Shown here: piece after piece, positions 30,867 to 63,738 of the stretch | Numbering within the stretch: position 1 is the first letter of the stretch | How the letters are laid out: each line of letters begins with the position of its first letter | NCBI GenBank assembly: GCA_903813345.2 | Contig: CAIIXF020000008.1 | Location: forward strand, 22,304,822-22,368,821 | Reading direction: 5' to 3' | Length of the DNA: 64,000 nucleotides | Source: Owenia fusiformis | Lineage: Eukaryota > Annelida > Polychaeta > Sabellida > Oweniidae | Translations under genes and position numbers: made by a program | The notes under the pieces: generated by a model | The model's database searches: none | Seen by the model: the letters and a program-made list of their open reading frames with translations, nothing else | Told to the model about the DNA's origin: nothing

Positions 30867-31885
30867 TCATATTTTCCATGGCACAACATTTGGGTCATAG
30901 CCAGGCAAACTATATGTTGATGTGATAAGATTAGGTAGTACACAAGGTTGAGTTGAACCAGAAAATATGGCTTCCTGTACCCCTAAAGTCCCTAAAGAAC
31001 TCTCTAGATTAGTTTGCTTCTCATTGGCATAGGTCTCCATGTTTGTGATGATGGTATCAGCAGCAGCTTGGGTTTCATTGGGGTGTATAACATCAGTCCC
31101 ATTTTGTACATGCATAAGTTTCAATGTTTTAGCTTCGTACAAACATTCTGGTTTTTTCTTTTTAACCAAAGGCATCGTGCGATGAATCTTGTACTTTGGC
31201 ATGCCTTCTTTGAGAGCTTTGTTGCAAGCTGGATGGCTCTTTCTGTGTGATTTTAACCCTGCACGTTGGGTAAAGCGGTCTCCACAACCGACACATTCAT
31301 ATGGTTTTTCACCAGTGTGAATCCTCATGTGCTGATCTAGATAAACTTTCCTACTGAAGTGATTGCCACATTCTGGGCACAGATGTACGCTGGTGTGGCT
31401 CTCTCTAAAGTGCCGCTTAAGCAGAAATTCAGTTTTAAATCTCCGGTGGCATTGTTCACATGGAATATTCAAGTCTTGGTCTACATGGAGGGCTTTACAA
31501 TGTCCAACTAGACCTTGCAAACTCCGAAATTTATGCCCGCACGTTTCACATATATGAACATTCGTTCCATGAACTTCCTTCTTATGAACTTTCACACCAT
31601 AATTCGACACGAATCTTTTATCACAAACATCACATGGCCACATTTTTGATTCTGTATGTGAAAAAACGTGGCACACATAGTCAGCCATTTGAGACCATCT
31701 TGAACCACAAGTTTTACAAATGATAGGTTTCTCACCATGATGAATCTTTAAATGTTTCACATAGGCATGGCTTGATATAGATGCTGCTGCCACATATGAT
31801 TTCTCAACAGGAATAAGGACATCACACGAATCACATTGAAAGACTAAGTCACCTTTTTTGTCCAAGATTATAATTGGCCGTTCCC
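30867..31885 (-). CDS. Minus-strand BTB gene: terminal C2H2 zinc-finger exon (seven fingers)
   Basis: Terminal exon with acceptor tttgcag and phase 1 (first codon G|GG), encoding GERPIIIL and then zinc fingers to a stop at 30867-30869. Finger heads in order: CDSC (atypical long spacing), CKTC, CDVC, CETC, CEQC, CPEC with a TGEKPY linker, and CVGC. A ~110-residue tail without fingers follows (KKKKPECLYEAKT, then an Ala/Thr-rich stretch). Joined to 32186-32338 and 32568-32654 it gives a ten-finger DNA-binding tail. Spliced to the BTB and linker exons the product is 729 residues. Whether the DUF3504 exons are also included in some mRNAs is unknown; the phase allows it (1054 residues). Confidence 0.88.
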
Positions 31886-32185: not shown

Positions 32186-32338
32186 CTGTATGTAGGATTT
32201 GATGCCTAGCCAGGTAAGGTTCATTAGAAAAGCTTTTAGAGCAGATATCACATGTCAGAAGTCCATGGGCCAATCGCTTATGTTCAGCTACAAGCTTGTA
32301 GGTGTCAAATGTTTCACCACACTTGGTACACTGTTTAC
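32186..32338 (-). CDS. Minus-strand BTB gene: two-finger exon
   Basis: Phase 1 in and out. It encodes GKQCTKCGETF...H followed by CDICSKSFSNEPYLARHQILH and the linker TG. Acceptor atctccag, donor gtaacc. The 153 bases keep the frame between the neighbouring finger exons. Confidence 0.85.
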
Positions 32339-38318: not shown

Positions 38319-38324
38319 TGTACA

Positions 38325-40385: not shown

Positions 40386-40604
40386 AAGGTAACTAGACAT
40401 AGGTGACTGACATACAGTAGATTTATGTGTACATTTCTTAATCAAGATAATCAGAATTATTATACACTGTACATGTATCTAAAAATACACTCGGTCAATA
40501 CACATATGCATTCATATGCATGATTGTTTGAATTATGGTTCTAGTTCAGAAATCAGCAATGTTGATTTCAAAAGGAAAATTATATAAAAATGAAAAACAT
40601 GTAC

Positions 40605-41294: not shown

Positions 41295-42192
41295 CTGAAA
41301 ATGATAGAAGTGAATCGTGGATCACTTGGTATAGAGGTATCCAATCAAGTCGTACAAATCATCAAATCAAGCATGTGATTGATTATTTCACTCCAATCGA
41401 CAGAAAACACAAATCAACAATATATTTTATGGCAGCTTCCTCACATACATGTTCTCTTTTAATAATGTTAATCTGAACATGGACACAAACTTGTCAAAAG
41501 CATAAACGTTTTGAATGAAGATTTTGGACCAACCTGTAAATGCAATACAATATTGAGACCACATTACCCTGAAGAAAAGCTTTTCAAATGAATGATATAC
41601 TGTAGTTTAAATCCATTTTGTATTATGTATTAATAAGTGAATACAGTTCTCAGGGCAGAACAACAATCATGCAATGTCACTCAAAAGTCAAAACCATATA
41701 GTTGTATTTGTTTTTGAAACCACTTTGGTGAATTGAAAAATAATTTGCAAAATATAATCTTCATCAAATGTTCTGTAAATTGTACTAATAAAATAGGCAC
41801 CAATGTTGCAAAAGTGTCAAAAAACAACCCCAATTGATAACAAATACAGTGATATACATGCATTGCATTGTAGAAAATATTACAATGGTCATGCTCCAGT
41901 CTTATTTTCTGGAATGTCTTAATTATAAATAATGTTGATGATTTCCTGGTACATCCATGACTTAAAATTTTCTGGCATGTCTAGGATTTATTTTCTGCTG
42001 AAGTATACGTAAGAAATTTCCAGGCAAAGTATGATAGTTCTCTTACATGTTTCATAAGTAATTTCCTGACATGCATAAGTACCAATTTAACCTGACCATA
42101 ATTCCTTCCCTTCAAATTCCATATTTTTCCCCTATTTGGCATATTAACATGACCAATATGACACCTGTTCTTAAGTAGGTAGATAACATTAC

Positions 42193-42342
42193 CTGGAAGC
42201 CTTTTTTTCTTTGCATTCTTTGTTAGTTTTCTTTTCTTTGATCGTGTAGAGTAGGTGGAATCTGTATTTGCAGCCTCTTCTTCATATGCGTTATCACTAA
42301 TAGGGTAAGTCAGCCCATCATCAATGTAGGAGTCTTCATGCT
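42193..42342 (-). CDS. Minus-strand BTB gene: linker exon with NLS-like tract
   Basis: 150 bases, phase 1 in (acceptor aatttcag) and out (donor gtaatg). It encodes an acidic stretch (EHEDSYIDDGL) and then a basic tract (RSKKRKLTKNAKKKRLP) that looks like a nuclear localisation signal. Its donor is phase-compatible with both the DUF3504 exon (41294) and the finger exon (32654), making it the likely branch point. Confidence 0.82.
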
Positions 42343-42539
42343 CTGAAATTAGTTGTAACTAACTTATGCCATGATTTTTCAGAAATTGCCCTGAAATAAA
42401 TACTAAAATGATAGTTTATTTGGTGGTTATTTATAAGTTTGTCACACTCCATATATTAATAATATTCATAATATAAGTTAAACAAATTAACTCTTTAAGA
42501 TATCATATTATATACTTTAAACATTTCATTTTTTCTGTC

Positions 42540-42600
42540 AGATGGACAGACAGATGGACGGACGGATGGAGGAGTATATCCCTATAGAACGTTGTTCGTT
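42540..42600. repeat. GACGGACGG-type repeat end
   Basis: A gatggacagacagatggacg run is followed by ctatagaacgttgttcgttgggatt. It resembles the (tccg)n plus atcccatcgaac end of the 28620 element and may be a fragment of a related family. Confidence 0.45.
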
Positions 42601-43058
42601 GGGATTAAAAGCACAACTGCATATACATGTACAGGCAAACATTCTTTGTTCAGATTTATAAAAGATTCTGAGCTTACAGTGTGGCAAATAAAGCATTTCT
42701 GTAGCTGGACATTGTTTTAGTTGAGCATAGTTATTATTATATCTGTGGGCAGAGAAACACTCCAGGGAATTTTTTCAGACTCATCATTCACAGTGATCTC
42801 CCCAGGATTTTTTCTCAGGTGGGTGCAAAATTCTCATTTTCGAAATTCAGACCAAAATTGGTCAAAATATGCCAATTTTTAATGATTTTTCTCATTTTCA
42901 AGTGGGTGCAAATGGATTTTCAGGTGAGTGCAAGCCTATTTTCAAAATCTCAGGTGGGTGCTGCACCCACTTGCTTTAATGCTGGGGAGATCACTGATTC
43001 ATCCAGTATTGATGCCTTATTTTCCACAAAAATTTCAATGTAGAGTACTGTATTATAC

Positions 43059-43839
43059 CTTTCACAAGTTCCTGTTTAACATTAACCACACAGCCTGGTT
43101 CTCCTAAATCATCACCCTCCTGTATTCCAGTTTCAGAGGATGGAGGAGGGTAGTAACAATCCAGGGGCTCTGTGTTATCATCAGAGGGGTAAAACTGCTG
43201 AGAGTCAATTGTTTCATCATGTCCTACTTCTTGCTTAACATTAACATCACAACTTGATATATTCATAGTATCACCAAGTACCTCAGTAGCACTGTCATTG
43301 TTTAATTTTGGACTTCTTAATCGCTGTTTAAGTTTAGTCTGATCTGATGATTTGTTCTGAAAGAGACTTGAATCACAATCAAGTAGGAAATCATTCATGT
43401 CTAGTTTGATAGCCAGTCTCATTACTTGTTGTATATCGGCACTTGGAATGTTAACTGTCTGACCATACATATAATCCAGTATGTATCTGAGGATATGTGG
43501 AAGAATATCTTGCTCGGTGTCCAACTCTGCACAGTTCACCATCACCATGTGGTCTACTAGGTAAGTAACTTGGGCAGCCACAACAGGGCTGTACTGGCAC
43601 ACAATAGCCTTATGGCCTAACAACTCAGAGCCATCTTTTAAGAGAAAGCGAACATCAGCAAGTTTTGTGTCATTCCTCAGCTGACGGAGTTTTGTACAAA
43701 GATAAGAATTGTCTACAGTGTACATTGTTTTTCCTTGGTTTGTGGCTGCTTCTTGCTTTTGAAACAAACTAAGACTGTCCAGTTTATGTTCTGCATCAAT
43801 ATTCATTGTATTGTATGTTTTATCTGGGTTTGAACTCAT
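43059..43839 (-). CDS. Minus-strand BTB gene: first coding exon with BTB domain
   Basis: ATG at 43839-43837, donor gtataat after 781 bases (phase 1). BTB/POZ spans residues ~48-155: LRQLRNDTKLADVRFLLKDG, the A(V/L)CxYSPVV turn, LRYILDYMYGQTVNIP and a final helix to LLDCDSSL. BTB domains mediate dimerisation and co-repressor contact in transcription factors. A Ser/Asp/Glu-rich tail holds two INV/VNVKQE sumoylation-like motifs. A possible 5' UTR acceptor (ttccag) lies at 43902, so transcription starts further right. The gene runs divergently from the plus-strand BTB gene. Confidence 0.9.
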
Positions 43840-43901
43840 TGTGCAGATTGATTACTGGATCTGCATACTATTGGATGTTTGCTTTGGATCTAGTCTTTTA
43901 C

Positions 43902-46566: not shown

Positions 46567-46567
46567 A

Positions 46568-48257
46568 ATGGACACACCCACTCTTCCACCAGATGGGCAA
46601 CCTGGGGTATCTCCTGATGTCCCTCGTTCAACTGCAATACCAATATCACAACATATGCAACACGCTCAACCAGCTATAACAGGGCCACCTCTCCCACCAG
46701 TGTCACACTTTTCTGATCAGATCTCGCATGGTCGACATTACCAGCCAAGCTTGCCTCCCTCCACTTATAATAATAGTTCAGAACCAGTGGCTTATGCTCC
46801 TGGTACTGATTCAACCTCATATAGAAGCAGTGTCACCAGTGATTCTTACAGACCTAGTCCAGATCATGATTCTTATAGACCTAGTCCAGATGTGTCAACC
46901 TACAGGGGTCCACCCCCACCAGGACAATCTTACAGGCCCAGCCCTGACCCATACAGGCCTGGAGACCATCAGTCATACAGACCTCCTGGCACTGTAGATC
47001 CCAGTAATGATTATCGATCGAGGATTGAAGACCAGTATAGAACTGAAAATGATAGATTTAGACCAAGACCCGATGCAGAGCAATATAGACATGGTGCAGA
47101 TAATGAACAATTCAGAGCTAATGTTGAGCAATTCAGAGCAAGTACAGATGCTGTCATGTTTAGACCTCCTAATGGTGATGCTGGTAGCTATCGACCTGGT
47201 TCCGAGCCTACTTATTCAGCAACACCTGATCTGCAGAGCCAGACATTCAGGCCTGATGTGCAATCTCGACCAGCAGCCTCGGATAACAATGTCCCTCAAA
47301 ACATCCCTCAGACAGTTGGCTTTGATGATCCTCTTTACAGAGCAGGGAATAAACCAGCAGAAAGTACTACACCACCGCCCACACAACCTGAAGAGAATAC
47401 AGAATCTGAGCCAGCTCTGGTGAAATCACAACCTCCCTCACCAGTAAATGCAGACCTTGCTGATGTAATTAACAACACAATCGGGGAACCACTCACTGTG
47501 CGTAATCGTACAACAAAGTCTAAACTTCAAAACCTGCGTAAAAGTCAACTGTTTGCTGATGTTGTCTTTATGTTTCGTGGAGGAAAGGAAATCTGGGCTC
47601 ACAAGGCTTTAGTATGTGAATACAGCAGCTACGTGTTACAGCTTTGTAGCACAATGCGCACATTTGATGCCCAACAGACACAATCTTGTGTCATGGTAGA
47701 CATTGAGAAAATTGACTCAAGCATTGAAATCAAAGAGGACATCCTGAATATGGCTCTTGATTTCATATATGGCGAACCATTAAAAGTACTTCCCACAGAC
47801 ATGGATGACCTGGTGTGGCTCTCTCAGAAACTACACATGCCTGACCTCCATGCTGCCTTGCTAGACACTATTAAGGCAAATCCTGATTATAAAGATCCCA
47901 AACGAATACCAGTAAAAACAGAAATGATCAGTAATGATGATGACAGTGCAACAGACATTGATGAAGTATCACCGAAGAACTCATCATTGATTACATTTGG
48001 GACTCAGACAATTGAAACTGCGATCTTGGGAACAACAAAAGGGAGATCAAAACGCAAGAAAACAATACCAAAGAGACATGTGCCAGGGCCAGGTAGACCC
48101 AAGAGGAATGCTAAGTCAAAGTTTATACGCAAAGTCAAGCCACCACCAGTTCCTGTCAATGAAGAGGGTGTTCCAATAGATGAGGAGGGTAATGTTATAT
48201 TGGATGAGAATGGCCAACCTTTACCACCAATTCCTCCACAAGAAGAAAAACCAGAAG
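46568..48257 (+). CDS. Plus-strand BTB-ZnF locus: common exon 1 (YRP repeats, BTB, AT-hook-like)
   Basis: The ATG lies two bases after an acceptor (gtttcag, exon start 46567), so a 5' UTR exon exists upstream. Residues 1-300 are low-complexity, with many SYRPSP/FRP/YRP units rich in Pro, Ser and Tyr. The BTB domain spans ~317-437: LQNLRKSQLFADVVFMFRGG, HKALVCEYSSYV, LDFIYGEPLKVLP and KLHMPDLHAALLD. A basic segment with PGPGRPKRN, AT-hook-like, lies near residue 507, then a Pro/Glu-rich end. The donor gtaagt leaves phase 1. The BTB resembles the minus-strand neighbour's, suggesting an old inverted duplication. It is the shared amino end for all eight tails. An unusual feature is the long disordered region ahead of the BTB; insect lola has BTB at the extreme N terminus. 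Confidence 0.92.
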
Positions 48258-48448
48258 GTAAGTCATTATTTTTGACAATTTGAAGTAGAAGTCTGGTAAC
48301 AAGTTTTTGCTTTTGACTTTAGTGTATGATATGTTTTTCTACATGATATATTACTGTTCACTTCATCTTTTCCTTATATATATGCGATTTTATACTTAAT
48401 TCTCTGAATATTTGATGCTGTTTTTTATTCAATTATTTGGTCTTATAG

Positions 48449-48643
48449 AAGTAGAAGAAGAGGTGCCTACATTTGATGAAGAAATGGAAACTCTTGATGC
48501 TGAACTTGGAGTCCCTGCTACCCCAGAGCCAGACCCTGAAGATGATCCTGACTTTAGTGCAAGTGGCTATATTAGGAGATCAAAGAGAAAGACGAGGGCT
48601 CGTATCACTGGTTCTGGGGTCTTCTCAACCAGACGTAAATATA
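48449..48643 (+). CDS. Plus-strand BTB-ZnF locus: common exon 2 (acidic then basic)
   Basis: 195 bases, phase 1 in and out (acceptor tcttatag, donor gtgagt). An Asp/Glu-rich segment (TPEPDPEDDPDFSASG) is followed by RRSKRKTRARIT, which looks like a nuclear localisation signal. Confidence 0.85.
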
Positions 48644-48933
48644 GTGAGTATCCTTCTGTTATTATTGTTTGTCAGTAGTTAATTATTTTTCCTATGATTG
48701 AAGTTTGGTATAGTGAAACCCTTAGCTGTCTATCTGTCAGCTGGAGCATAAGTCAGATACTAGTTGACAGATTAAAGATTTTCTATTAAGTAAAAAAATC
48801 GAAATATTCCTACAAAATACTTTTTTGTCAAAATTGCTGTCACTTCAAAATTTGTGTGAAGTTTTTCATTTCAAGTTAAATTAATGAGTATTATTGCATG
48901 ATGTACAATATTTTTGTGATTCTTTTATTGCAG

Positions 48934-48981
48934 TTAAAAAAGATCCTAACAGACCAAAAGAGCCAAGGATTCGAAAACGAA
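48934..48981 (+). CDS. Plus-strand BTB-ZnF locus: common micro-exon 3
   Basis: 48 bases, phase 1 in and out (acceptor tattgcag, donor gtaagt), encoding IKKDPNRPKEPRIRKR, a basic linker. Skipping it would keep the frame, so it may be optional. Confidence 0.8.
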
Positions 48982-49199
48982 GTAAGTTTCACTGGTATTT
49001 GTTTTCACCATTCTTCATGTTTAAGAAATAATACAATTCGAAATGTTGATTCTAGAACTGCCAGAATGTCCTAGAAACAACAAGTAAAGAATCTTGGATT
49101 GCATCACTGATGGAAAATCCTTAAATAGAGCGAAGAAGCCTATCTTAACTCATACATACATACATATGTTTCCTTTAATATATCTGTGGTTGTTTTCAG

Positions 49200-49400
49200 A
49201 TCGTAAGCCAAAGGAGAAAAGGGAAGGGGAACCAAAGAGTCGCAGGAAGAACAAATGCAATAAGTGTATGTTACAACATGCTACGGTTGAAGATCTTTAC
49301 AATCATAAGATCCAGGTTCACCACCTGTTTGGATGCGAGCTCTGCAAGCGTTGCTTTGATGCAGAGGATATGCTGAAGATACATCAATTGACTCATTCAG
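49200..49400 (+). CDS. Plus-strand BTB-ZnF locus: common exon 4, two C2H2 fingers, branch donor
   Basis: 201 bases, phase 1 in (acceptor gttttcag) and out (donor gtgaga). It encodes a basic start and two fingers, CNKCMLQHATVEDLYNHKIQ.VH and CELCKRCFDAEDMLKIHQLTH, ending in the linker Ser-Gly. Its donor is the single point from which any of the eight tails downstream can be joined in frame. The next acceptor is 1.98 kb away; I see no other exon in that intron. Confidence 0.88.
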
Positions 49401-51375
49401 GTGAGAATCTTTTGCCTTATTTAGGATCTATATGCCAGCACCATTGTACCATCTTTTATGTCTTTCAATTAGTGTATCACTTTTTTAATGGCCGTTATGA
49501 TTCAGACTCATTTCTCCTTCAAGGATTCACATCACATATTGTCATTTTGAAATCTCAATATGTAATTCTTCTGTGAAACATGACTGTATTGGGACTTTAT
49601 TTCATTACTTCAGATTATGTGAGATTTGTTGAGTAGATGTAACATTCATTATTAGTCGAATTAGTGGTTGGAAATGTTTAATTTGAAAATCATTTTTAAA
49701 GATAGAATACACATCATGCCTAACCTGTGTTAGTCTACATTGGCTGATTTCTCTACCAGGTTTTGATATCTTTTTTGTTCTATTTTTGTTAGTCTTGATC
49801 ATGAATGTGACATTTTGCAGAATGTCTTTTCCTGTTGGTCTGATAAATTGGAGACTTTTGTCGATCATATTATCATATTTTCATCATGTTGTTTCTTCAT
49901 TATTGTTAGTTAAGTTAAAGTATCATCCACAATAGGAACTGGCAAATAGATCCACGAGAGTATGTGTCCATGTTAACCCCCGCATTTCACAGCACAGAAG
50001 CAAATTAGCATTTTATCAATGAAAATCAATATGAAATCACAAGTAGCAGCATTTGAAAAACAGAATATGCAAGTTCAGATATATGTTGTTACAATTAAAT
50101 TCCTTTGTAATTAACTAAGAACTTCACCTGTATTGTGAGTTCGTGGCATATCTTGCATCTTTTAGTTGAATATAAATTCTTATTGTTGAAAATTAATTAT
50201 GAAACAATTGATTACTAATTGTTCACTTAGCCTATTCTTTTACTGATGTTTTATTAAAGACTTTTTATCATGGACACATAGTCTTTTTAATCTATATAGT
50301 TTTAGTGTAAGGTGTTTGTGTCTGATTTTATAGCAATAGAAAGGTCTCCTGGACTTAGCTCATTGAAGCCAATGTTGTTCCGACTCATGCTTTAATACAT
50401 TACTGACCAATTAAATCGACCCAAAAATTACAACTTATTGTTTGCTCCATTTAAAGCATTTATTTCATAAGTTCTCAATTCACCCTCTCTTGCTATCACT
50501 ATTCCAGTGCAAAAAATGTCTTTTAGCATAAGTTGAACAACATTCTTCATCTTAAGAAAACTCAAATCTAACATGTTGAATTTGTTATAATCTATTCTGT
50601 GTAATGTGAGGTTGTCAACAAAGCTGTGTTGACTTAATTCACACAAAGATGTACATTAAGGATGAAAGCAAAAATAACCTTCAAATATGTTCATCTTTGG
50701 AATGATTTACATCAGCCCAATACTTTTTGGGGGTTGTATTTTGTTTATTGTGGCATTTAACAGTAGAAGAGATGAATAGATTTGGAAGGATATTTTCTTG
50801 AAACTGCACAATTCATCTAGAATGAATTTGTTCAATATTCTAAAAAAATTTGAGTGTTGTGCGTGGTGATTTTCAGGCCATTTTTAATTTTAGGTCATTC
50901 TTTTCAGGGTAGTAAACATATAGAAGTTAATTGCATTTTTAGAGTTAATAATAAGGCACAAATGATGCTTGTTGCATTAGCGAGGGTCCAGCTGGTCAAC
51001 AAAGGACGTGAACAATTTCCCTTTTCAGGTTGATGATTTTGCCTTTCAGCTATTTGACATGTTCAGTTTACCCATGCATTATAAACCCTGGTTTATTTGA
51101 AGAATAGCCTATTGTCGCTTGGTAATGCTTGTGTTCAAGGATGTTGAATGTAGTAAAGGTTTCACAGGGTCATGATAGTTTGAAGTTGCCAACATGTTTG
51201 TGTATACGTATTTGTATATAATGGGGTTTACTTGTCTATGTAGGATACACACATCTCCAAGATTATTTCAAGCTTGACTAATACAGTCTCATGATTGGGC
51301 TTCAAAATATTAAAACCCTTGGGGCCAATTTTGGAAAAGTTGAGCTTGAATAATCTGGAGTGTGTGTACTTGCAG
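49401..51375 (+). other. Intron between branch donor and first tail
   Basis: Nearly 2 kb without a recognisable exon or known repeat. If tail choice uses RNA pairing or regulatory elements near the donor, they should be sought here; none is evident by eye. Confidence 0.5.
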
Positions 51376-52532
51376 GGAAGAATCCATATATGAAAATTAC
51401 TGATGAGGGGGAAGTGTCTTACCATTGTGATGAGTGCAAGATGAGGACTCCTGATTTGTTACAATTGATGCGGCATCTACGTGTAATTCACCGTCGCGAT
51501 AAAGCCCGTCCTCTCAACTGTTCAGAGTGTGATTATAAACCTACTGGTATGTCGGAATATGGACGCCATATGTACTGTCATTTTGGTGAAAAACATAACA
51601 AGTGCCAAATTTGTAATGCATCGTTCAAAACACGCAATCAGCTAGCCAATCACTCTCTCACACATACAGACCAAAGGAATTATGTATGTTCAGTATGTGG
51701 GAAAGCATTCAGGAAGGGGGCTCATATGAGAAATCATGAATTAACTCATGTTACTGACAATGAGAAAACCTACAAATGTAATATATGCAGCAAGGCCTAT
51801 GCAAGCGAAGCTCATTTAACCCAGCATAAACGAGAACATAACCGTGCCTTCCATTGTGACATATGCGGGAAGAGATTTGGTAGATCTGAACACCTGAAGG
51901 GGCATTTATTGAGACATAGTGGTATTAAACCTTTCCATTGTGAATTCTGTGGAAAGGGATATGCTGATGTTCGAGATTACCGTCGTCATGTTCAGCTTAA
52001 CCATACATCTGGTTCTGACGATGCACAATCCTTACAAAGCAAAGTTAGAGGAGCTCATAGCTGCCCTGATTGTGGCAAACGATATGCTGATAAACGTACA
52101 ATGAAAAAACATATTAAGACAAGCCATAGTCAACCTGCCATGCCAGATATCAATTTGAAGGCAGAATCAGCTGCTTTAGAAAAAATCAATATGAAGGGTG
52201 AATCAGTAACTTTAGAGATGCAATCTGTTAATAGCAACAGCTACCCAACTCTTGTCAATGAACATATTGTGCCTATGACAGTGCCAGATCCCCGCCAAGG
52301 ATATTTCCATACTGTGCCAACAATACAAACCGTACCTCCAATGACTCTACCATTGACCCTGGCTGACCAGGGAATACAATATCAGTTTATAGACCCTACC
52401 TCATTAGGTATACAATGTCGATTCTGTGGGATAATGTTCACTAAAGAAGACGACTATCATACTCATTTACATCAGACACATTCATTTGCTCCTACTACTG
52501 TAGATAGAGTTATCAGCTCTTCAGGGTATTAA
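51376..52532 (+). CDS. Alternative terminal exon T1: nine C2H2 fingers
   Basis: Acceptor gtgtgtacttgcag, phase 1 (G|GG), opening KNPYMK. Eight consecutive fingers (heads CDEC, CSEC, CQIC, CSVC, CNIC, CDIC, CEFC, CPDC) are followed by a ~100-residue spacer rich in Pro/Thr/Val and a lone ninth finger, CRFC, near the C terminus. The stop is at 52530-52532, with AATAAA at 53212. Joined to the common exons it makes 1096 residues. It is most similar to T2 over fingers 2-7, with the same acceptor sequence, so the two are tandem duplicates. Confidence 0.9.
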
Positions 52533-53498
52533 TATCAACATAAACCCCTTTTTATTATTTAATTTTTACAAATTATCAGCATTATTATTTTTTTGCTTGT
52601 CATGGATCTAAGCTAAGTGTTGTACTGCTTGTCCTCATGAGCTCAGTTTATTATAAGTGTTCAACTACTTGCCATTTACTATTTAGATGTTTGAAGAATA
52701 AGTTATTGCCGAAGTTGTTCTGATTTTGTTGATGCTAATTTTTATAGTTATAAAGTACAGTAGTTAGTTTGTAAACAAGGAATAATATCACGGGGGTAAA
52801 GCAGACCCGATGATGCAATGAGCTTGCTCGGCGGATTGACTGTGTAACGGGTCTTAATGTATAAGTGTACTCAGCGTAAGGTTCAAACAACGCTGATCCT
52901 CAAAGCATCTGCTCATGGTATATTCGTGTTTTAACACCCGTGAATATGTACTTGTATATTAATCAAATGCAATATTTTAAACATTTAGCCATGTCAATTT
53001 GAGACAACAGTGCCAAGTAAATTATTGGTCAAGTTATGAAACGATAGTTCTAGTTCTGAATGATTAGCCAAAGATCATATATTCATTATATAGTTATGCT
53101 TCATTGGGACTCAACCATTTTGGTAATTGTTCCCTAAATGTTGGTGCTTTAATACAGTATTATTAGTTATACTTATATAAACATAGTATAAAAAGTATTT
53201 TAGAATAGATAAATAAAAACAATCAATTATCTTCAGTTAATTTCAGCTTGAAGCAAAAGATTCAAAATATTTGATTTTGCAAAATAGACATTAAACTACA
53301 TGCATACACTTCCTTAAGTTCTCCTTTTGTGATGTCATGGTTACCATGATTATAACACAGTGAGGAATTTCGTAACCACGAGCCTTCCCTTATCAGTTTT
53401 AACAGGAATTAGCTTAGTTTTTCTCAACTCAACATATATCTGTGCTACTATTTCTGCTGCTTCCACATAGTGTAATGGTGGCCTGTGTGTACTTGCAG

Positions 53499-54190
53499 GG
53501 CACAATCGCTATGTAACATACACCAGCACCAATGAACCAGTATATCATTGTGATCTCTGTGATAACACATACCTAAACAGCCACAAACTCATGCAACATT
53601 TAAGGCAGGAACATGGCAGAGATGATCTGCGCCCTCTGCAATGTGCTGAATGTGATTACTGCCCAAGGAGTATATATGAATACAACAAACATATGTGGTG
53701 CCACAAAGGAGAGAAAGATCATAGGTGTGCTACTTGTGGCTCAGAGTTCAAACTCCAGGAACAGTTAGACTCGCATATGTTGACTCATACTGATAAAAGA
53801 AAATATGTATGTGAAACTTGTGGGAAAGCATTTAGAAAATTATGCACATTACGTGATCATGTCACGACTCATGTTAAGGAAAGTGATAAGAAATTTAAAT
53901 GTAAAACCTGTGGAAAGGCTTATGGAAATGAAAACCTGTTATATATTCATGAAAAGGAACATAAACTTCTAAACCATTGTCATATTTGTGGTAAGAGATT
54001 TGGTCGTCTTACTCACCTTAAGGACCATCTAAAACGACATAGTGGTGTGAAACCATTTAAGTGTGAGATTTGCGCTAAATGTTACGCAGATGTAAGAGAT
54101 CTTCGTAAACACATTAAATCAGTTCATGCTCACAAACCAGATGACATTAACACTCAAATCTTAACATTTGGAAGTATGCTAAACATCTAA
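53499..54190 (+). CDS. Alternative terminal exon T2: seven C2H2 fingers
   Basis: Acceptor tgtgtacttgcag, phase 1 (G|GG), opening HNRYVTY. Finger heads: CDLC, CAEC, CATC, CETC, CKTC, CHIC, CEIC. It lacks the last two fingers and the spacer of its sister T1. The coding part starts well before the first ATG (53591), so it only makes sense as a spliced tail. AATAAA at 54347. The predicted isoform is 941 residues. Confidence 0.9.
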
Positions 54191-54620
54191 TAAACACTTT
54201 CTCACAAATCAAATCATCCTTCTTCAAAGGACTTATTGATGCTTAAAATACTATATACCCTTGCGGCAAGGGTGAAATCAAATTATTATTTAACTTTGTA
54301 ATTATATATTCAGCTTATTTGAAAATGATTTGAAGATATTGAAGTAAATAAAAATATAAAAATGACGTAGGTGCTTTAGTAATCAGTTTGCTCTTAGTAT
54401 GTAGGTAAGTCTCTTAATATGTAGGTAAATAGGGAAGGTGGATGCAAACCAGATATGGCCAATGGAAGTTATATTATAAAATGTTTTGCATTAGTTTAAA
54501 AATTATTACATTACCAGTGTTATAACAATAACAATCCCTTGCCTTTATAATAAATTGTATCAATGATGCAAAACACTTTTCAATTCCAATGGCCTAATCT
54601 GGGCTTGTTTATGTTTGCAG

Positions 54621-55891
54621 GCGTGCATCCTTACATTAAATACAATGAATCGGGAGACAGAATAATCGAATGCTGTGAGTGTGGCGAAACATTTGAGTTG
54701 ACTGCCCATCTTCTTAATCACCTCAGGGTGGACCATGATCGTGATGATGATAAAGCAGTACATTGCAAAGAAGATGGTTGTGATTATAAATGTGCAGGAT
54801 TCTATACATTTGGTTTCCACCTTGGGTCTCATTTCGAGCAGATATTTCGAGTAAACTGTCAAGAGTGTGGAGCTAGTATGAAAAGCACGCATAGCCTCAA
54901 GCTGCACATAAAGCATGTACATAGTGAAGTAAGGGATCACATGTGTACTGTATGTGGTAAAGCCTTCAAGAGAGGGAACCAACTAAAGGAGCACTTCCAG
55001 GTTCACATGGAAGACATAGAGAAGACCTTTAATTGTAGAACATGTGATAAGAAATATGGAAGTCGATATAAACTTCTCCGTCATGAAAGAACACATAACA
55101 AACCATATCATTGTGAGATATGTGGACAAAGTTTTGCACGTATGGAACATATGACCAATCACAAAGCCACTCACAATAAAGCATTTAAGTGTGAAAAATG
55201 TGACAAATTGTTTTCTCTCCCTGATCAGTTAAAGAAACATCTTGAGGCACATGAAAAATACTTCAAGTGTGAAAAATGTGGCCAAGAATTTAACACTGCA
55301 AGTAAATTTAGCAAACATTTATTGCTACATGAGAAACATCCTGATAAGGTAGATTCAGAAAAATATAAAAAATATGGATGTTCTAGGTGTGAAAAGAGAT
55401 TTGCAAGTAACAAATTATTAAGACGTCATATTGCAAGGCATAATGACGCCACTTATCACTGTGAAATATGTAAGAGAATGTTCACATGTATGGAGTATTT
55501 AAACCGACATAATAAGAGAACACACAATATAACCAAGCTACTACAATGTGAAATGTGTGATCTAACTTTCTCACAAGCCATTCGGTTAGCTCAACACATG
55601 AAAAAACAACATTCCCTTGAAAGTAATGAAATCGTGAAGGAGATAGAAGTATCAGATATGTTTACATGTTCAGTATGTAATGCAAAGTTTAGTTGTAGAA
55701 AAGACTTGCAAGAACATATAAGTGCTCATATTCCTGTTGATAACACTCCAATGATGGGTCACTATGGGTTCCCTCCAAGAGCCCATATGGGGCACATAGC
55801 TCAAGTTCACCCTAGTGGGACTGGGATATATACTCTACTGGTTGATTCAGGATCAACAACTACATCCAAAAACATAACACCACAATATTAA
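54621..55891 (+). CDS. Alternative terminal exon T3: twelve C2H2 fingers
   Basis: Acceptor tatgtttgcag, phase 1 (G|GC), opening VHPYIKY. It is the largest tail. Twelve fingers begin CCEC; the second has an extended C-x4-C head (CKEDGC); then CQEC, CTVC, CRTC, CEIC, CEKC, CEKC, CSRC, CEIC, CEMC and CSVC. A short Gly/Pro/Thr tail ends at 55891. AATAAA at 55964. The predicted isoform is 1134 residues. An open frame continues upstream of the acceptor by chance. Confidence 0.9.
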
Positions 55892-56536
55892 TCACAACTG
55901 ATCATGTTGAACACAATGGACATATTTTAGATTGTACAGTATTATATTTTTTAGTTTTGCACAAATAAAAATGCACATTTTCATATTATACAAACTCAAT
56001 TTCTTTGTTTACTTCTTAGATTATCGCAAACTTATCTTAAATTTGAGCTTTAAAATCAATTTTTGGCCTGAAAATATGAAAAAAGGAATCCATTGTTTGT
56101 TAAAGAAATGAAATTAAGAATCTAGTTGCCTGATATTCATTCTTCAGTTCCTAGCTAATTAACCAGAGTATTTATTCTACTGGCCCTACCTTAACTCAAG
56201 TTCTGAAACAATTATTATTATGTGGATCTCATATGATTGTTATTGATTAGATAAACAATATTTCTCTATATTGCTTCTGATAGGAGAAATATATTTTAAA
56301 AGCAAGTGCTGAGTCAAATAAGACTAATGCAACATACTGGTATACTGTAAAACCGCATTACATTGTATTATCAGTCATGTAGCCTACTAATGGTAGTTTT
56401 ATATATTAAACTCACAGATGTCATTTTGGCAATGTCATTATAAACAAAGTTGTCATCTAGGTATATATGCTGTGTTAGATGACTTAAGACATGAGTTTAT
56501 TTTCTGATATCTAACACAGTATATTTTCTTTTATAG

Positions 56537-57375
56537 GTATGGTGCCATTTGTGATCTATTCTGGTGATGGTACCGAAATGCAATACAAATGCGATATATG
56601 TCAGGAGACATTTAACAGCTCACCTAAACTATATGAACATCGTGAAAAAATACACAATATTAAGGATTTTAAGTGCCCTTATTGTGATCTAGATAAACCA
56701 AATCTACATGAATTTGTCAAGCATATCTATAAAAGTCATTTCCACCAAGGCGAAGGAATTCACAAGTGCCCTATATGTGGTAGAGGATTTAAATACAAGT
56801 CGGCAATACCTAACCATGTTTTAACACATACCAAAGAGAAACCACACATGTGTTCAACATGTGGCAAAAGTTTCACATTGCTCTCTACTTTGAAACACCA
56901 TGAGGAGGTTCATATGAGTGAGGGTGAGAAGGCCTATAGGTGTTCACAGTGCGGTAAATGTTATGGCTGTGAAAAGCGACTGAAAGAACATTCTAAAAGT
57001 CACTATAAACCTCACCAATGTTCACTTTGTGGTTTCCGATTCTCAAGACAACATCATTTAAACAGACACATGAAAACTCAGCATTCAGACCTGAAAAAAG
57101 AACTGAAGATCAAATCTGATAAACCAGATTCTAAAAATCATGACACACCATTTATTGAAAATAGTGGTGAAGAGCCACAAACAAGTTTAATGCAACCCAT
57201 TCCCCCTATGTTAAGCTTTAGGGGGGTCAGACAACCTGGAGAAATAGCCTGCTCTTCTTTGGGAAGAAACCCTGAGGGAGGGGAATATACAGAAACGGAA
57301 CAGCCAGTATTTCACTTCCAAAGTGACACTCAGTCTAATAGCAATATATCACGTCTTGGAAGTTTTTTATATTAA
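56537..57375 (+). CDS. Alternative terminal exon T4: six C2H2 fingers
   Basis: Acceptor cttttatag, phase 1 (G|GT), opening MVPFVIY. Finger heads: CDIC, CPYC, CPIC, CSTC, CSQC, CSLC. The order and the KEKPHMC linker place it with T5-T8 as one duplicated family. A Ser/Pro/Glu-rich tail of ~85 residues follows. AATAAA at 57655. The predicted isoform is 990 residues. Confidence 0.9.
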
Positions 57376-58069
57376 CTTGCCAAAATGTAATTGAGTGGCA
57401 AATTGAGAGACTGAATTGACATTCTGTTTTATTATGAATTTGCATGCAATATTATAGAATATGCTTCTATTTACTATTGTACTTATACCAATGCAAAAAT
57501 GAGAAACCTTCTATCAAGTATATTTTAAACAGAAAGATCTGAAGGTGGTCTATTATAAGATTTTATAAATTCAAAGTGCTCTCACATTTTAATTTTCAAA
57601 TGATTTGGTGCAAGTGTTAACTAATTAATGTGCAGTATTTCAGTTTTATAAAAAAATAAATCAACATTTAAATCAAAATGTTTACTTTGTTGTCTGATAA
57701 GAGTCTATTGACTCAATATATTTATAGCATGCGCGGGTATTTAGTATATTTCCTAATTATTGCAGTTCTTCACGAGTAATTTGCTTGTCTATAATATATA
57801 TTAACTGGTTACTAGGGAAATGAAGTTAGAATTTTGCTGAAGCAATCAAAATTGATGAAAATGTTAAGAGTTGAATTAATATTCAGTTGCTGCAGGGGAC
57901 ATTATATATTTTGCATGTAACCCTTACAATGTGCATGGATGCACTTTGACTTAAGTACAAGTATTAAGAATACTGAAAGAATATCATCAGAAAGAACTTT
58001 CCTCCTATATACAAGACTTGGAACCTTTTTGTGTGGGTGGTACTTAATTAAGTTCATTCTCTTTTCCAG

Positions 58070-59046
58070 GTTTGAATCCCTATATGAAGTATAGTAAAGA
58101 CACTGATAATGAGGATGGACTCACTTTCCATTGTGATAAATGTTCGAAAGTTTACCTCAAACCTAACCAATTAAGTAAACATCGTCTTGAGGAACATATG
58201 TTAAGGCGCCTTATCTGTTCTATATGTAAAGCTACATCTAAAAACCATTACTACTTTGGCCAGCATCTCTACTTTGTGCATTATTATGAAGGAAAGGGGT
58301 ACCATGGATGTAAGATATGTGGAACTCATTTAAGGCACAAGTCTGCTTTAGAAAAGCACATGTTGATCCATAAGCAAGAGAAACCACATATGTGTAGTAA
58401 ATGTGGTAGGAACTTCACATTAGCAGGGACTCTGAAGCAACACGAAGAGACACATATGACAGAGGCAGATAAAACTCTCACATGTCATATTTGTGGTAAA
58501 AAGTATGGACTTAAGAGAAGCTATCAGCTTCATGTGAGTAGTCATAAAAAGATTCACCAGTGCGCACATTGTGGCTTGAGGTTTGCACGTAGGGAGCATA
58601 TGAAGCGCCATATACAGACACAGCATTCAAGTGAAGAAATTGCAGCCATCGCTAGAGAAAAAGCAAGAATTCATTCTCGTAATCGTAAATCTAAAGATAA
58701 AAGTGTCTCTAAAATGGGAGAATCTAAATTATGTACCGGGCCTTCAAATGACAATCTCTCATTGTCCAGTAATGAATTAGTTCAAAGTAAATCCAGGCCT
58801 AATATAAGTGCTGTAAAGCCCGATTCAATTGCAATGAAGCCTGAATTGAGCATCATACCACCTGATTCAACTGTAACAAGTCTAGAATTCCATCATATCA
58901 GGCCACATCTGATTGAAGCGAAGCCTGGTGTAGATTTGGATGGTGCTAGAGGTCACAATCCTCAAGAATATGCAATTGAAACAATGAACTGGACCACCAC
59001 CTTTGCAGCAAATGACAATGGAAATCCCAGATATAGTAAACTCTAA
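58070..59046 (+). CDS. Alternative terminal exon T5: six C2H2 fingers
   Basis: Acceptor cttttccag, phase 1 (G|GT), opening LNPYMKY. Finger heads: CDKC, CSIC, CKIC, CSKC, CHIC, CAHC. Finger 2 has the unusual HYYFGQHLYFVH. After the last finger comes SSEEIAAIAREKARIHSRNR, shared with T8 almost letter for letter, so T5 and T8 are the closest pair. AATAAA at 59237. The predicted isoform is 1036 residues. Confidence 0.9.
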
Positions 59047-59592
59047 ATATCGGGACACTCAAAACAGTAATCTAAGTGTTTAGCCTTGCACATTCAAATG
59101 TTCAACTAGATTAAGGAAATGTATGTTCATTTGTTTTATAATATATTACAACACTGATTATATAAACACTTATGATATGTGCTTAATTGTTTGAGAGTTC
59201 TTGTGCTTTAGCAATACATTTCTATTCTGAGTGAGAAATAAATTAAGGAGAAAAACAATGTCTTCACTATTATTTGTTGAGCTTCTCTCACTTAATGAAA
59301 AACTATTTGTGGAAATTAAGTTCATAGATTTTACTTGTGAAACCCTTCGTAGCTGAGTGCAGGGAATTAATCTTTCAAGTAAAAACAATGCTATATTAAA
59401 ACTCAGTGATGTTTGTTCATTTCCATTAATCATTTAAATCGTTGCATTTGATTGAAAACTATATTTATTCTGGGGAGCTCTATCAGTACAAAACTGGTCT
59501 TCCTTAGAGGTATTGCATTTGTATTATCCATATTAGAAAGTATATATTCACAAGGGTAGCATGATTATTCATGTTAATCCTTTTATTTTCAG

Positions 59593-60293
59593 GTTTGAAT
59601 CGCTATGAAAGCACTGAGGGTGATAAAACTGTGTTTCACTGCGAAGCATGTCCTGAAACCTTCCAAAAGCTTCATGAGTTATATACTCACAGGACACAGG
59701 CTCATAATCTTATAAGATATAAATGTGAAGTTTGCAATAAGTCACTCCTGAGAAGTCATTGTCACTTCTCCTATCACCTCTACTACTCTCATTATTTTGC
59801 CACTGCAGGTGTTGATTGTGCGATATGTGGAGAACATGTACTTCACAAGCAGCGTCTTTCACACCATATGTTAGCTCATCATAATGAAGCTTATAAGAAT
59901 AGAGAAGTTGTTAAAAAGCCTAGGAGAAAATTCTTATGCACTAAATGTGGACACGCTTTAGGCTCTAGACATGACCTCCTGGTTCATAATAATAACGTCC
60001 ATACCAGTAGCTCAGATAAAACAATACCATGTCATGCTTGTGATAAGAAATTTGGGAATGAAGCAAGCTTAAAACAACACATGGTGCTTCATGAGCCAAA
60101 AAGATTTCAATGTGTCGATTGTGGGATGCTATTTGCCCGTTCATATCATTTAAAACGTCATAGAGACACCCAGCACTCTACCCCTGATATTGTTGAAAAG
60201 CAGCGCACAAAAGCACGCAAACATTGTCGCGATGATGCAGAAAGAAAACGACAAGCCAAACTAAAAAGAACAAATGATGCAGAAAGGAAATGA
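59593..60293 (+). CDS. Alternative terminal exon T6: six C2H2 fingers
   Basis: Acceptor attttcag, phase 1 (G|GT), opening LNRYEST. Finger heads: CEAC, CEVC (one extra residue before its His pair), CAIC, CTKC, CHAC, CVDC. It ends in a basic Arg/Lys-rich tail (RKHCRDDAERKRQAKLK). AATAAA at 60437 and 60696. The predicted isoform is 944 residues. Confidence 0.88.
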
Positions 60294-61239
60294 CAAGTCA
60301 AACTAATAAAAAGAACAAAGAACGGAGAGCTTGATGACTTGTACAATAAGTGGACTATGGACAAGTAACTAGGAACTAGAGCATCTCCTGAAATAGTATT
60401 GATTCATTTTTATCAGCTGATTTGAAAACAAACCGTAATAAAAGAATGTATACTATCATGTATATTATTATTACTTGTAGTAGACAAACTCAGAGAACAT
60501 TATTAGTGTTAACTGACTGATTCCAGACATTCTCATTGTCATTCTGTATATTTAGTGAGGTTAAAAACATTCTGCATGATAAGGAACAATTTCTTATAAA
60601 CTGTAGATATCAATTTGGTTCGACTTAACTGGATACCTTACTCCTCAAAGTTATTAATTTCAGAAGTACATTATATCGTATTGGTCTTAGTTGAAAATAA
60701 ATTGCCTTGATTGATCAGATTATGAAATAGCTTGTTCATTGAGATGGAGATTTGAAGTTTGACTGTTAACTGCCCTGGTTCATCTGGTTGCTCTACCCGA
60801 CTGATGTCTCCTGTCTGATTGATGGAACCAGGGTGCAGTTAGCAGGTTAGTTAGTAACGCAATAGTTTACTTAATTGCTTATCTTACATTAGAGGTTTGA
60901 TAATGTTCTCTCATTTGATAATTTATACAAATTCTTAAATGGTGGAATCTCAGTTCGCAGCTTATTATTGAACCTCCAGTGTATGGCATGCATGTAAATC
61001 AAAAATTATCAGATAAATTATATTTCAACTTTCAGTAGTTAAATTAACATCACACATCTACTTTACTGATTTCTCTAAAGGTTTCTCTGGAGTTGATACA
61101 TTTGATCATGTAAAGTCAAACAAATTGTGCAAAGTCAAAGTGCTGTTATGCTCAATTTTCCAACTTTTCATGATTTAAGCACACATATAAAGCATGTTTA
61201 TGAGACACTAGTATTTAATATTAAATTTTCTATTTTCAG

Positions 61240-62327
61240 GTTTGAATCCTTATGTAACAGATGATGGAGAAACAGTGATATACCACTGCGACAAATGTCC
61301 AGATACGTTCTATGACTGTAAAAAATTGACCAAACATAGGCGAGATGTTCATGGATTGGTCAAGTTGATCTGTAATATGTGTGACGCAGCTTTAATCAAC
61401 ATGCATTTTCATTATGCGAAACATCTGTATTACACACATTATTTTGACGGCAAGGGATATCATGAATGTCAAGTTTGTGGAAAGTTCTTGAGCTGTGAAG
61501 AAGCTTTGCAGAAACATTTAAAGATTCACGACACCCGTGAACGTCACATGTGTGCCACTTGTGGTCAGAGGTTTACACTTGCCTCTAATCTAAAAACTCA
61601 TGAAATTTCACATATGAACACTCCCCATATTGCAAGAAATCATATGGATGAATCAAAGAAGACACATCAATGTGTCCATTGTGGTTTAAAATTCTCCCGT
61701 GATGCACATGTGAAACGCCACATCCTAACACAGCATTCCAGTGCAGCAGTAGTGGAAGCAGCAAGGGAAGTTGCTCGTAAACATTTCCGCGATCATCGAA
61801 GTAGGAAAAGAAGTCCAAAAAGTGAATCAGATATTGGTGCTATTGAAGGAGAGACCCCCCAGCAGGCCAAAGCCAGAAGGAAGGCTGCTAAGAAGGCTGC
61901 TTCTGCAGAAGCTGCAGCAATGCAAGATCAATCTCAGTCAGTCCCAATGGATCAGGTCCAGGCTTCAACACATGCTCCTCATTTACTCTCCCAAGGCCCT
62001 CCTTTGCCACCTCTACCAACCCAAGTACCCCTACAAAGGCCAGTACCACCACCCATGCATTCAGTTCCTCAGATGCCTCCAACATCAATGCATCATGTGC
62101 AGAGAAATGGGCCACCCATACCAATGTCTATGTCTCAGATGCCTGTACCCACACATTCTCATTCACAACTAGGTGCTCCCCATAATTTATCACAGATCTC
62201 TGTACCTATGCACACTCAGAGACCTGGACCAGCACACGCTCATAGTTCTGCAGTGCATGTAAATATGGAACAGTACTATGGAACACCTTCTGCACCCAGG
62301 GATATATTCAACTACTTTAAGTTATGA
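61240..62327 (+). CDS. Alternative terminal exon T7: five C2H2 fingers, long Pro/His/Gln tail
   Basis: Acceptor tattttcag, phase 1 (G|GT), opening LNPYVTD. Finger heads: CDKC, CNMC, CQVC, CATC, CVHC. The finger that sits fifth in T5 and T8 is missing; HMNTPHIARNHMDESKKTHQ bridges the gap, an in-frame loss. A ~150-residue low-complexity tail of Pro, Gln, His, Ser and Met follows, unlike its sisters. Overlapping AATAAA at 62721 and 62725. The predicted isoform is 1073 residues. Confidence 0.9.
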
Positions 62328-62752
62328 TCATAAGAGGTGATAACCAAATTCAATTTTTCTAAAACTGGGCCAATCAAACCAGCATAGATTCTTCACTCAG
62401 TCCATATGTTTGGATGGTTCAAGATAAATCAAAACAACACTACCAAACATAAAAGAATGAGTTACTGTTATGCAAATGATTGCCCCAAAACTGTTATTAG
62501 GTGACATTAAAATTAATCAAAGAAACTAGAAATATCAAAATTGATGGGAAAACTCTCCAGATAGTCTCCAAACCTTTTGTAAAGTGCATATGCAAGCTAT
62601 TGAAATTGTGCTTATCAGAAAATGCTGCTTGCCATAAACTGCATTTGAAACTGACAAAAGTAAAATGCATTCTTAAAGCTGTAGTATGAAAAACACCAAA
62701 TGGTACATCTAACACATTTTAATAAATAAAATAGTGTTCTTTTTATTTGCAG

Positions 62753-63738
62753 GATTGAACCGATACATAACAAGCAAGGATGGTATTACAATGACCTATC
62801 ACTGTGATAAATGTAGTGAGGTTTTCGACCAAGCTAAAGGCTTGTCCACTCATAGGAAGAAAATGCATGGGCTTGTTGACTTTATCTGTAATATATGTGA
62901 GGCAACATCTAAAACACATCACTATTTTGCGGAACATATGTATTTTGTGCATTACTATGATGGCAAAGGGTATCATAAATGTGATGTGTGTGGAACATCA
63001 TTGCGTCATAAGTCAGCATTAGCAAAGCATATGTTGATACATAAGCAAGAGAAACCTCATATGTGTTCTACATGTGGCAGGGCTTTTACACAGTCCAGTA
63101 CACTGAAGACACATGAAGAGATTCATATGACTGATGCAGAAAAAACACTTGTATGTGCAATATGTAATAAAAAATTTGGACGTCGGACTACTTTTAAATT
63201 ACATGTTAAAGGACATAGTAAATCTCATCAGTGTGCTTATTGTGGCCTAAGATTCTCACGTCAAGGACACATGAAGCGTCATATTCAGACACAGCATTCT
63301 AGCGAGGAAATTGCAGCTGCCGCCAGAGAAAAGGCGAGAATACACTCACAAAATCGTAAAACAAAGCGCCATAAAAAGACAGCAATTTGTGAATCACAAG
63401 CCTCAAATATCTTAAAGGATGTGAAACATTTAGAGTCTCAAGAGCAAAGCTATGTTAGTAATGAACAAGTGCAACAGCATTTTATGCCAGGAGTAAAACC
63501 AAATGAATCAGCACAACAAACTTGTGTACCTGAACCAGATGAACAATCCAGACAAGATGTCTATGTATCCAATACACCACATTTGGATAGTTTAACCCCA
63601 GTGTACCATAATAATGCTCTTCCACAGGGGTTAGACCTTAGTGTTACTAGGGAACAATATGTTCAAGGGCAACTCCGACCTTTAGCTTACACCAACATGG
63701 AGCAAATCAGCTGGCCTGTGTTCCCCCAAAATGATTGA
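62753..63738 (+). CDS. Alternative terminal exon T8: six C2H2 fingers
   Basis: Acceptor ttatttgcag, phase 1 (G|GA), opening LNRYITS. Finger heads: CDKC, CNIC, CDVC, CSTC, CAIC, CAYC, then SSEEIAAAAREKARIHSQNR as in T5. A polar Gln/Pro/Ser tail ends at 63738. No AATAAA is visible in the remaining 260 bases, and more tails could lie beyond the window. The predicted isoform is 1039 residues. Confidence 0.9.

Follow-up and report, generated by a model that had tools for sequence, protein, structure and literature searches.

Can a single BTB-encoding head serve many zinc-finger ends in an animal outside the insects? The question is raised by a stretch of 64,000 nucleotides from the annelid Owenia fusiformis (here called the window, whose first letter is position 1), in which an earlier note recognised a lola-like locus with four common exons and eight alternative terminal exons. 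The following sections describe the locus, its relatives on the same chromosome, the ways in which head and tails could be joined, and the origin of the layout.

The common head and its terminal exons

The head is composed of four exons on the plus strand. The first, E1 (46568..48257), is an open reading frame ending in a phase-1 donor and contains, in order, an ATG, a Ser/Tyr/Pro-rich stretch, a BTB domain (residues 320-435; Pfam BTB, 43.5 bits, above the gathering cut-off of 20.5) and a basic linker. It is followed by E2 (48449..48643), 195 nt that encode an acidic/basic linker and are defined by splice signals, frame and a positive coding score; by E3 (48934..48981), of 48 nt, defined by splice signals and frame; and by E4 (49200..49400), whose two finger-like units have counterparts in similar two-finger exons of paralogous loci, and which ends in ..THS/G before a phase-1 donor (gtgaga) at 49400. 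The four exons total 2134 nt (phase 1), and all their internal junctions are in phase 1. An acceptor-like AG abuts the ATG at 46568, so a non-coding 5' exon is likely to exist upstream. A bacterial-type promoter scan of 43800-46600 was uninformative for an animal, a single-sequence structure prediction of the BTB head was discarded (mean pLDDT 39.4), and NCBIfam gave zero matches for the four proteins searched.

Eight terminal exons follow in the window on the same strand, each running through C2H2 motifs to a stop: T1 (51376..52532, 9 motifs), T2 (53499..54190, 7), T3 (54621..55891, 12), T4 (56537..57375, 6), T5 (58070..59046, 6), T6 (59593..60293, 5), T7 (61240..62327, 4) and T8 (62753..63738, 6), which are tails A1 to A8 of the full array. 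The common exons joined to each of them form a single open frame with one terminal stop, and the predicted isoforms have 1096, 941, 1134, 990, 1036, 944, 1073 and 1039 residues, respectively. The four common exons, the phase-1 junctions, the in-frame joins and these lengths reproduce the earlier note exactly. Its array of eight is correct for the window, but the array continues beyond 63738 with seven more plus-strand tails, A9-A15 (65960-67125, 69663-70564, 71419-72548, 76711-77843, 79362-80542, 88295-89457 and 93001-94160, window numbering continued), which gives this locus, locus A, a total of 15 tails, 8 inside the window and 7 beyond, extending to 94160. All 15 lie 3' of the head and on its strand, are in frame with it, and have an acceptor and one terminal stop each. 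Additional tails were absent from the last 19.5 kb read, and the minus strand between 49401 and 113678 holds only two motif-bearing ORFs (52 and 61 aa), neither of which has more than one motif.

Pfam assigned three of the eight window tails, and the tail of the paralogous locus F, to C2H2 families and not to FLYWCH, the remaining tails being classed by the C2H2 motif only. T7, with a zf-C2H2 score of 24.0 bits, falls under the cut-off of 25.2; in this tail and the distal ones the fingers are few or degenerate. T7 and the distal tails A9 and A11-A15 are of one type.

Paralogous loci and the features of the tails

The same order of elements recurs at five paralogous loci of this chromosome: a BTB head, a two-finger exon with a phase-1 donor, and zinc-finger terminal exons. 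Tails number 15 in A, 24 intact ones in B-, 6 in B+, 4 in C, at least 5 in D and 1 in F, B- and B+ being arranged head to head; at the five other loci, too, every counted tail lies 3' of its own head and on the strand of that head. A two-finger-like exon ending in a phase-1 donor is found in six of six loci (in C the donor was seen directly and its frame derived by hand), and the five other heads score 26.6 to 48.8 bits for Pfam BTB (cut-off 20.5). The highest of these scores belongs to the head ORF of locus F (42991..43851, minus strand), which neighbours that of locus A in divergent orientation and has a BTB segment 35% identical to it. The two-finger exon of F (32186..32338, minus strand; acceptor placed by eye) ends in ..LHTG and a phase-1 donor, and its terminal exon (30867..31885, minus strand) has a phase-1 acceptor and 6 C2H2 motifs.

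When acceptors were scored blind to phase, phase 1 was chosen in 53 of 56 tail ORFs of the six loci, a count of homologous and so not independent exons. The first residues of the tails are conserved (n = 55), with G at position 1 in 47, P at position 4 in 38 and Y or F at position 5 in 51, and coding sequence thus reaches the acceptor. The claim that no tail has a plausible start codon was too strong, given that T1, T4, T5 and T8 (4 of 8) have an in-frame ATG after the acceptor and ahead of the first motif-defined finger. Such ATGs occur in 6 of 15 tails over the full A array and in 27 of 55 over the six loci, some of them within degenerate fingers. The AATAAA signals noted after T1-T7 are indeed present (for T1 only at +680) but carry no weight as evidence: across the six loci, AATAAA follows 33 of 55 tails, at no more than 500 nt or ahead of the next tail, against a frequency of 0.51 in random 500-nt gap stretches (P = 0.12), and it occurs on the antisense strand in 26 of the same 55 stretches. 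Polyadenylation signals were accordingly rejected as support for the tails, their frequency not being above chance.

One transcription unit or several

The reading that we prefer, and regard as quite probable, is that of one pre-mRNA whose head is spliced to a single last exon chosen among 15 alternatives. Transcription would begin upstream of 46568; E1-E4 would be constitutive and would contribute the BTB dimerisation domain, the charged linker and the two finger-like units; and the lone phase-1 donor at 49400 would be spliced to one of the 15 terminal exons, which all bring an acceptor, a C2H2 array and a stop of their own. A single transcription unit would in this way produce a family of BTB-zinc-finger transcription factors, one dimerising head being paired with 15 DNA-binding ends, and the proteins may be expected to act as isoform-specific DNA-binding factors.

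The joining could also take place in trans. In fly mod(mdg4), alternative 3' exons are reported to be transcribed from independent promoters and trans-spliced (PMC12692577), and a mechanism of this type, in which each tail would have a promoter of its own and be attached to the head transcript through its acceptor, would have that precedent and would account for tails as far as 44 kb from the donor. It is nevertheless unlikely, as all 15 tails of A, like those counted at the other five loci, lie downstream on the strand of the head, whereas some mod(mdg4) tails are described on the opposite strand (PMC4667647), and as the last common introns of A, B-, B+, D and F share no word of more than 11 nt in their first 800 nt, a comparison of low power. 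Within the single-unit reading we infer that head and tail are joined by cis-splicing with last-exon choice, in preference to trans-splicing.

Clustered vertebrate ZNF genes have their own promoter and a short first exon each. The array could consist of one BTB-ZF gene with independent zinc-finger genes of this kind clustered in tandem behind it; tandem ZNF clusters are described as common in mammals (PMC2443715). The ATGs ahead of the first finger in about half of the tails would agree with this arrangement. Private first exons were sought in 15 stretches, the intron before A1 and the 14 inter-tail gaps, the shortest of which are 425 and 430 nt, using a codon model for which the heads of loci B-D and parts of their tails served as training set, because an earlier hexamer model trained on finger exons had scored E1 negative. 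No coding stretch scoring like E2 or E4 was found in the 15 stretches (best 4.1-12.0 against 24.6 and 28.5; 48-nt exons would escape). Only 4 of 200 shuffles reached the score of the gap before A15, and the hexamer scan had given, before the same tail, a 22-codon ATG-to-phase-1-donor candidate (90123-90189; 1 of 100 shuffles) and, before A12, an open stretch with a repeat-like translation (73684-73857; 2 of 100 shuffles). Apart from these two weak candidates the gaps appear to have no clear coding first exon; exons as small as E3 escape the scan, so short private ones may still be present. Against separate genes stand this result, the narrowness of some gaps, the conserved peptide directly 3' of the phase-1 acceptor, the absence of a BTB match within the array among the 146 matches listed (150 of 196 candidates scored), and the recurrence of the head-then-tails layout in five paralogous loci; we consider the arrangement quite unlikely.

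Use restricted to the first tail or the first few, with the others as decaying duplicates, is very unlikely: a broken tail-like piece without a phase-1 acceptor in locus B- (12098440-12098847) and the fewer motif-defined fingers of the distal A tails would agree with it, but the 15 A and all 24 intact B- tails have an acceptor and are open to the terminal stop, dN/dS is 0.11 for A14/A15 and 0.14 for A13/A15, and a C-terminal peptide ending NYFKL is retained in A7, A9 and A11-A14.

The third A pair listed gave a dN/dS of 0.26, and the ratio was at most 0.81 among 45 listed of the 72 pairs with pS < 0.6. On the preferred reading, terminal exons would have been duplicated in tandem one after another as the array grew, the youngest tails being 3', and the head-plus-tails layout would have been duplicated elsewhere on the chromosome too; in the tree, A7, A9, A11, A12, A13 and A14/A15 are nested in positional order. 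At the finger positions that we take to be DNA-contact residues, A11-A15 are almost unchanged, so not all tails diversify specificity. In locus B these residues change faster (114/263 vs 251/856, Fisher P = 2e-5, 11 pairs, the residues not being independent); the excess was not significant in A (36/96 vs 96/323, P = 0.095, 5 pairs), and neither C (1 pair) nor D (2 pairs) showed it. Unchanged zinc-ligand residues were dropped as evidence, the comparison being limited to positions that fit the motif in both rows, which builds in a zero.

Origin of the layout and comparison with known systems

According to one study (PMC11426971), TTK-type BTB domains are defined by an N-terminal FxLRWN motif and are reported in arthropods only, searches of Annelida and Mollusca being negative; multi-isoform fly BTB factors are treated there as TTK-type, and a single isoform is given for every fly BTB-C2H2 protein outside that type. 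In the BTB-bearing exon of each of the six heads, FxLRWN was absent, relaxed pattern included. A phmmer search of PDB with the BTB segment of locus A alone gave 0 hits, for which reason a six-head profile was needed; the best matches of this profile (best 60 of 85) are vertebrate ZBTB17/BCL6, headed by a ZBTB17-BCL6 fusion (1.8e-13), and CP190, a non-TTK protein (PMC11426971), is the only fly BTB among these 60. The missing motif, the PDB matches and the arthropod-only distribution favour an independent origin of the layout as the better reading and disfavour conservation from an early bilaterian, the two origins between which the earlier note had left the choice. Its lola-like locus outside insects holds as an architecture of one head and many tails, strongly supported by the sequence and by five paralogous loci, but the TTK motif is absent. 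It is probable that a lola-type design arose separately outside the arthropods, in an annelid, from a BTB of non-TTK, ZBTB-like kind, and that it expanded on one chromosome to at least 6 loci, two of them head to head with 24 and 6 tails, and to no fewer than 55 terminal exons in all.

Extensive sets of isoforms among BTB transcription factors have been described as an arthropod, TTK-type trait. A lophotrochozoan counterpart did not appear among the literature matches listed, a coverage that leaves out most subscription papers; the available text of a study of oyster transcription factors describes BTB gene clusters and alternative terminators in two transcription-factor genes and mentions no such BTB array (PMC12111275). 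If the proposal is true, a second, unrelated origin would show that regulatory diversity can be reached repeatedly by combining one dimerising head with DNA-binding ends arrayed in tandem, and the loci would offer a natural system for comparing the control of last-exon choice among 15-24 competing acceptors. The claim is testable soon, given that life-cycle transcriptomes of Owenia fusiformis exist (PMC9977687; a term search of its available text returned no mention of BTB or lola).

Among known systems, vertebrate ZBTB proteins (ZBTB17/Miz-1, BCL6) share with locus A the combination of BTB and C2H2 and are the best PDB matches of the head profile. We know of no comparable arrays of alternative zinc-finger last exons in them. 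Chelicerate Dscam, with its tandem 5' cassettes (PMC4835542), and the clustered protocadherins likewise obtain isoform diversity from tandemly duplicated exons of one locus, but in these adhesion molecules the variable part is 5', whereas locus A would vary its 3' ends and its products are predicted to bind DNA. Drosophila mod(mdg4) also joins one BTB head to many alternative 3' ends, at least 30 (PMC11426971). Most of these ends carry FLYWCH, and some lie on the opposite strand (PMC11426971, PMC4667647), while the tails here are C2H2 and all on the strand of the head. Drosophila lola likewise has a single BTB amino end and a large choice of C2H2 3' ends (zinc fingers in 17 of its 20 isoforms; PMC11426971). 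In locus A the BTB head precedes 15 C2H2 terminal exons that lie on its strand, have a compatible phase and are in frame. It differs from lola and the TTK group in that its head and those of its five relatives lack FxLRWN, and from lola in that the common part already has two finger-like units and the layout is repeated across six paralogous loci.

Common exons and tails of locus A

The positions proposed earlier for the four common and eight terminal exons of the lola-like locus A are borne out. The common exons (E1 46568-48257, E2 48449-48643, E3 48934-48981 and E4 49200-49400, plus strand) measure 1690, 195, 48 and 201 nt, a sum of 2134 nt that makes the donor at 49400 phase 1, and E1 carries the BTB domain (Pfam, 43.5 bits against a cut-off of 20.5 bits). 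Pfam was applied to three of the eight zinc-finger terminal exons, or tails, in the window, with good C2H2 scores for T1 and T8 and one slightly under the cut-off for T7 (24.0 against 25.2); the remaining tails were assigned by C2H2 motif. The lengths given for the eight isoforms are reproduced exactly, each joined frame being open to a single terminal stop. The array is longer than the earlier note had it, since the eight tails of the window (A1-A8) stand and seven more (A9-A15) lie beyond it, to 94160 in continued window numbering; no further tail appears in the last 19.5 kb of the sequence inspected up to C8:22418499. All 15 tails are in frame with the head and give products of 941 to 1134 residues; the divergent A10 has Glu, not Gly, as its first spliced codon. 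The best explanation of this arrangement, and a likely one, is that a single head would be joined by alternative splicing to one of 15 terminal exons.

Other open frames were noted nearby. A 340-aa minus-strand ORF without a Pfam match lies between A13 and A14 (L003:881-1903). Within the window, a 534-aa ORF at 14282-15886 (+) with a CCHC-like knuckle (CYLCFKEGHIARDCP) resembles by eye a retroelement gag-like protein, and the long low-complexity stretch at 8391-9652, with several frames open on both strands, looks like a simple-sequence repeat tract.

Candidate private first exons and acceptor phase

E1 (150.4), E2 (24.6) and E4 (28.5) are recovered by a codon model whose training set was the heads and parts of the tails from loci B-D, but an exon such as E3 (7.7) would be missed. 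Across the intron that precedes A1 and the 14 inter-tail gaps of locus A (the shortest of 425 and 430 nt), the best open stretch reaches only 4.1-12.0 and is always under the top shuffle, the gap before A15 coming closest to an exception (reached by 4 of 200 shuffles). A hexamer scan picked out an open, repeat-like stretch before A12 (2/100 shuffles) and a 22-codon ATG-to-phase-1-donor stretch before A15 (1/100), and these two gaps are the likeliest places for any private start. The 22-codon stretch speaks for the tails being separate zinc-finger genes, each with its own start, but none of the 15 stretches scores like E2 or E4 in the codon model, and such an arrangement is very improbable. Among the 146 BTB matches listed for the genome (150 of 196 candidates scored), none falls inside the A array and the next one past it is at 22639540.

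When acceptors were ranked on their pyrimidine tract and the context of the AG, ignoring phase, phase 1 was chosen in 53 of 56 tail ORFs from six loci, a result for which the binomial figure overstates the evidence because the tails are homologous, and replication over six loci is the stronger argument. Three ORFs depart from this: A2 and C1, in each of which an AG of another phase further upstream scores equally, and a fragment in locus B-. Over the first 60 nt that follow the acceptor, B- tails have an ungapped nucleotide identity of 0.56-0.66, compared with 0.32-0.35 in the region 21-40 nt upstream of it; among A tails the upstream value is 0.25-0.36, and the downstream identity drops from 0.66 to 0.37-0.40, so that conservation in A is limited to the first 20-30 exonic bases.

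Paralogous loci on chromosome C8 and history of the tails

The window occupies C8:22304822-22368821 of a 498.26 Mb assembly (525 contigs), in which the BTB segment of head A has 21 matches, 13 of them on C8. E4 has 18 at E <= 0.01; these take in exons of loci A, C, D and F, as well as a match at 33573643 that adjoins another BTB head. The E4 counterparts of locus B, exons with two finger-like units, are absent from these matches and were identified by inspecting the sequence of the locus. The two-finger exon ends in H-x-G and a phase-1 donor in all six loci, the units of locus C being judged by eye and its donor frame derived by hand. To be counted as a tail, an ORF had to reach 110 aa and contain three or more C2H2 motifs; shorter ORFs were left uncounted. 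Locus B (12048500-12178499) holds two divergently oriented BTB heads about 7 kb apart, and this head-to-head pair (C8:12060774-12168726) comprises 24 intact tails on the minus strand (B-), with one fragment lacking a phase-1 acceptor, and six on the plus strand (B+). Locus C has four tails, locus F (window minus strand) one, and locus D at least five, a lower bound given that further two-finger exons are uncounted and 3.8 kb was inspected past the last tail. The listed BTB matches fall on contigs C1-C12, and C8 holds 26 of the 146, a sign that BTB genes may have expanded locally on this chromosome. Three partial matches to the erythrocruorin linker family score over the cut-off, one of them interrupted by a stop, in keeping with an annelid genome.

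Locus F (30867-43851, minus) consists, in order, of a BTB head, DUF3504-like ORFs, a two-finger exon and a zinc-finger terminal exon; the ORFs lie at 40546-41358 (minus; by eye only, with no Pfam match) and 36914-37279 (minus; 21.5 bits, under the cut-off). About 2.7 kb separates its head from that of A, the two lying head to head in an arrangement comparable to B-/B+. The DUF3504-like ORF of locus D (C8:35885554-35886423; 28.6 bits, slightly under the cut-off of 29.7) sits between BTB head and two-finger exons, as in F, and could represent an additional module, either common or alternative. At C8:35893589-35906651, short two-finger exons of D alternate with zinc-finger terminal exons and may form paired cassettes rather than single last exons.

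Within loci, 72 of 412 tail pairs have pS < 0.6, and dN/dS ranges from 0.11 to 0.81 in the 45 of these with the lowest dS, pairs that share tails and hence are not independent. In a tree built from the 55 tails, those of one locus tend to group together, with 6 changes of locus label where shuffled labels give 26.2, though no multi-tail locus forms a single clade; the placement of the long branches C4, F1, A6, C3 and A3 is unsure. A1-A3 and A10 separate from A4-A9 and A11-A15, and A7, A9, A11, A12, A13 and A14/A15 nest by array position, which points to growth of the A array by serial duplication in the 3' direction. Bm23, the third tail from the end of B-, is placed with full support as the sister of the last B+ tail (Bp6), in a clade that also includes Bm24 and Bm25; the locus probably carried more than one tail when the head-to-head pair arose. 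B-type tails are locus-specific: at a threshold of E <= 1e-15, a genome search in which 150 of 1648 candidates were scored gave 39 matches, of which 27 belong to locus B, 5 to A, D or F, and 7 to other places.

Proposed function of the tails and comparison with lola and mod(mdg4)

By family knowledge, the mode of action would most likely be that of other BTB-ZF factors, in which the BTB dimerises and the selected tail picks the DNA. At the finger positions that we take to contact DNA, change is faster in B (114/263 against 251/856 at other finger positions), the difference is not clear in A (36/96 against 96/323), and faster change is not seen in C or D. In A11-A15 the contact residues are almost identical and other parts variable, so these recent tails may differ more in dose or partner than in DNA target.

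Of the features typical of mod(mdg4), neither FLYWCH tails (in the four tails tested) nor tails on the opposite strand were found here. The likeness to lola holds for the layout and the predicted working, but not for the FxLRWN motif of the lola family, which is in none of the six heads; one published account reports TTK-type BTBs as not found in annelids or molluscs (PMC11426971), and the locus would thus be lola-like in its working with a family-defining feature missing. Between the two origins that the earlier note had left side by side, an exon layout of deep common descent whose head changed later is conceivable, but an independent origin of the lola-like layout is favoured.
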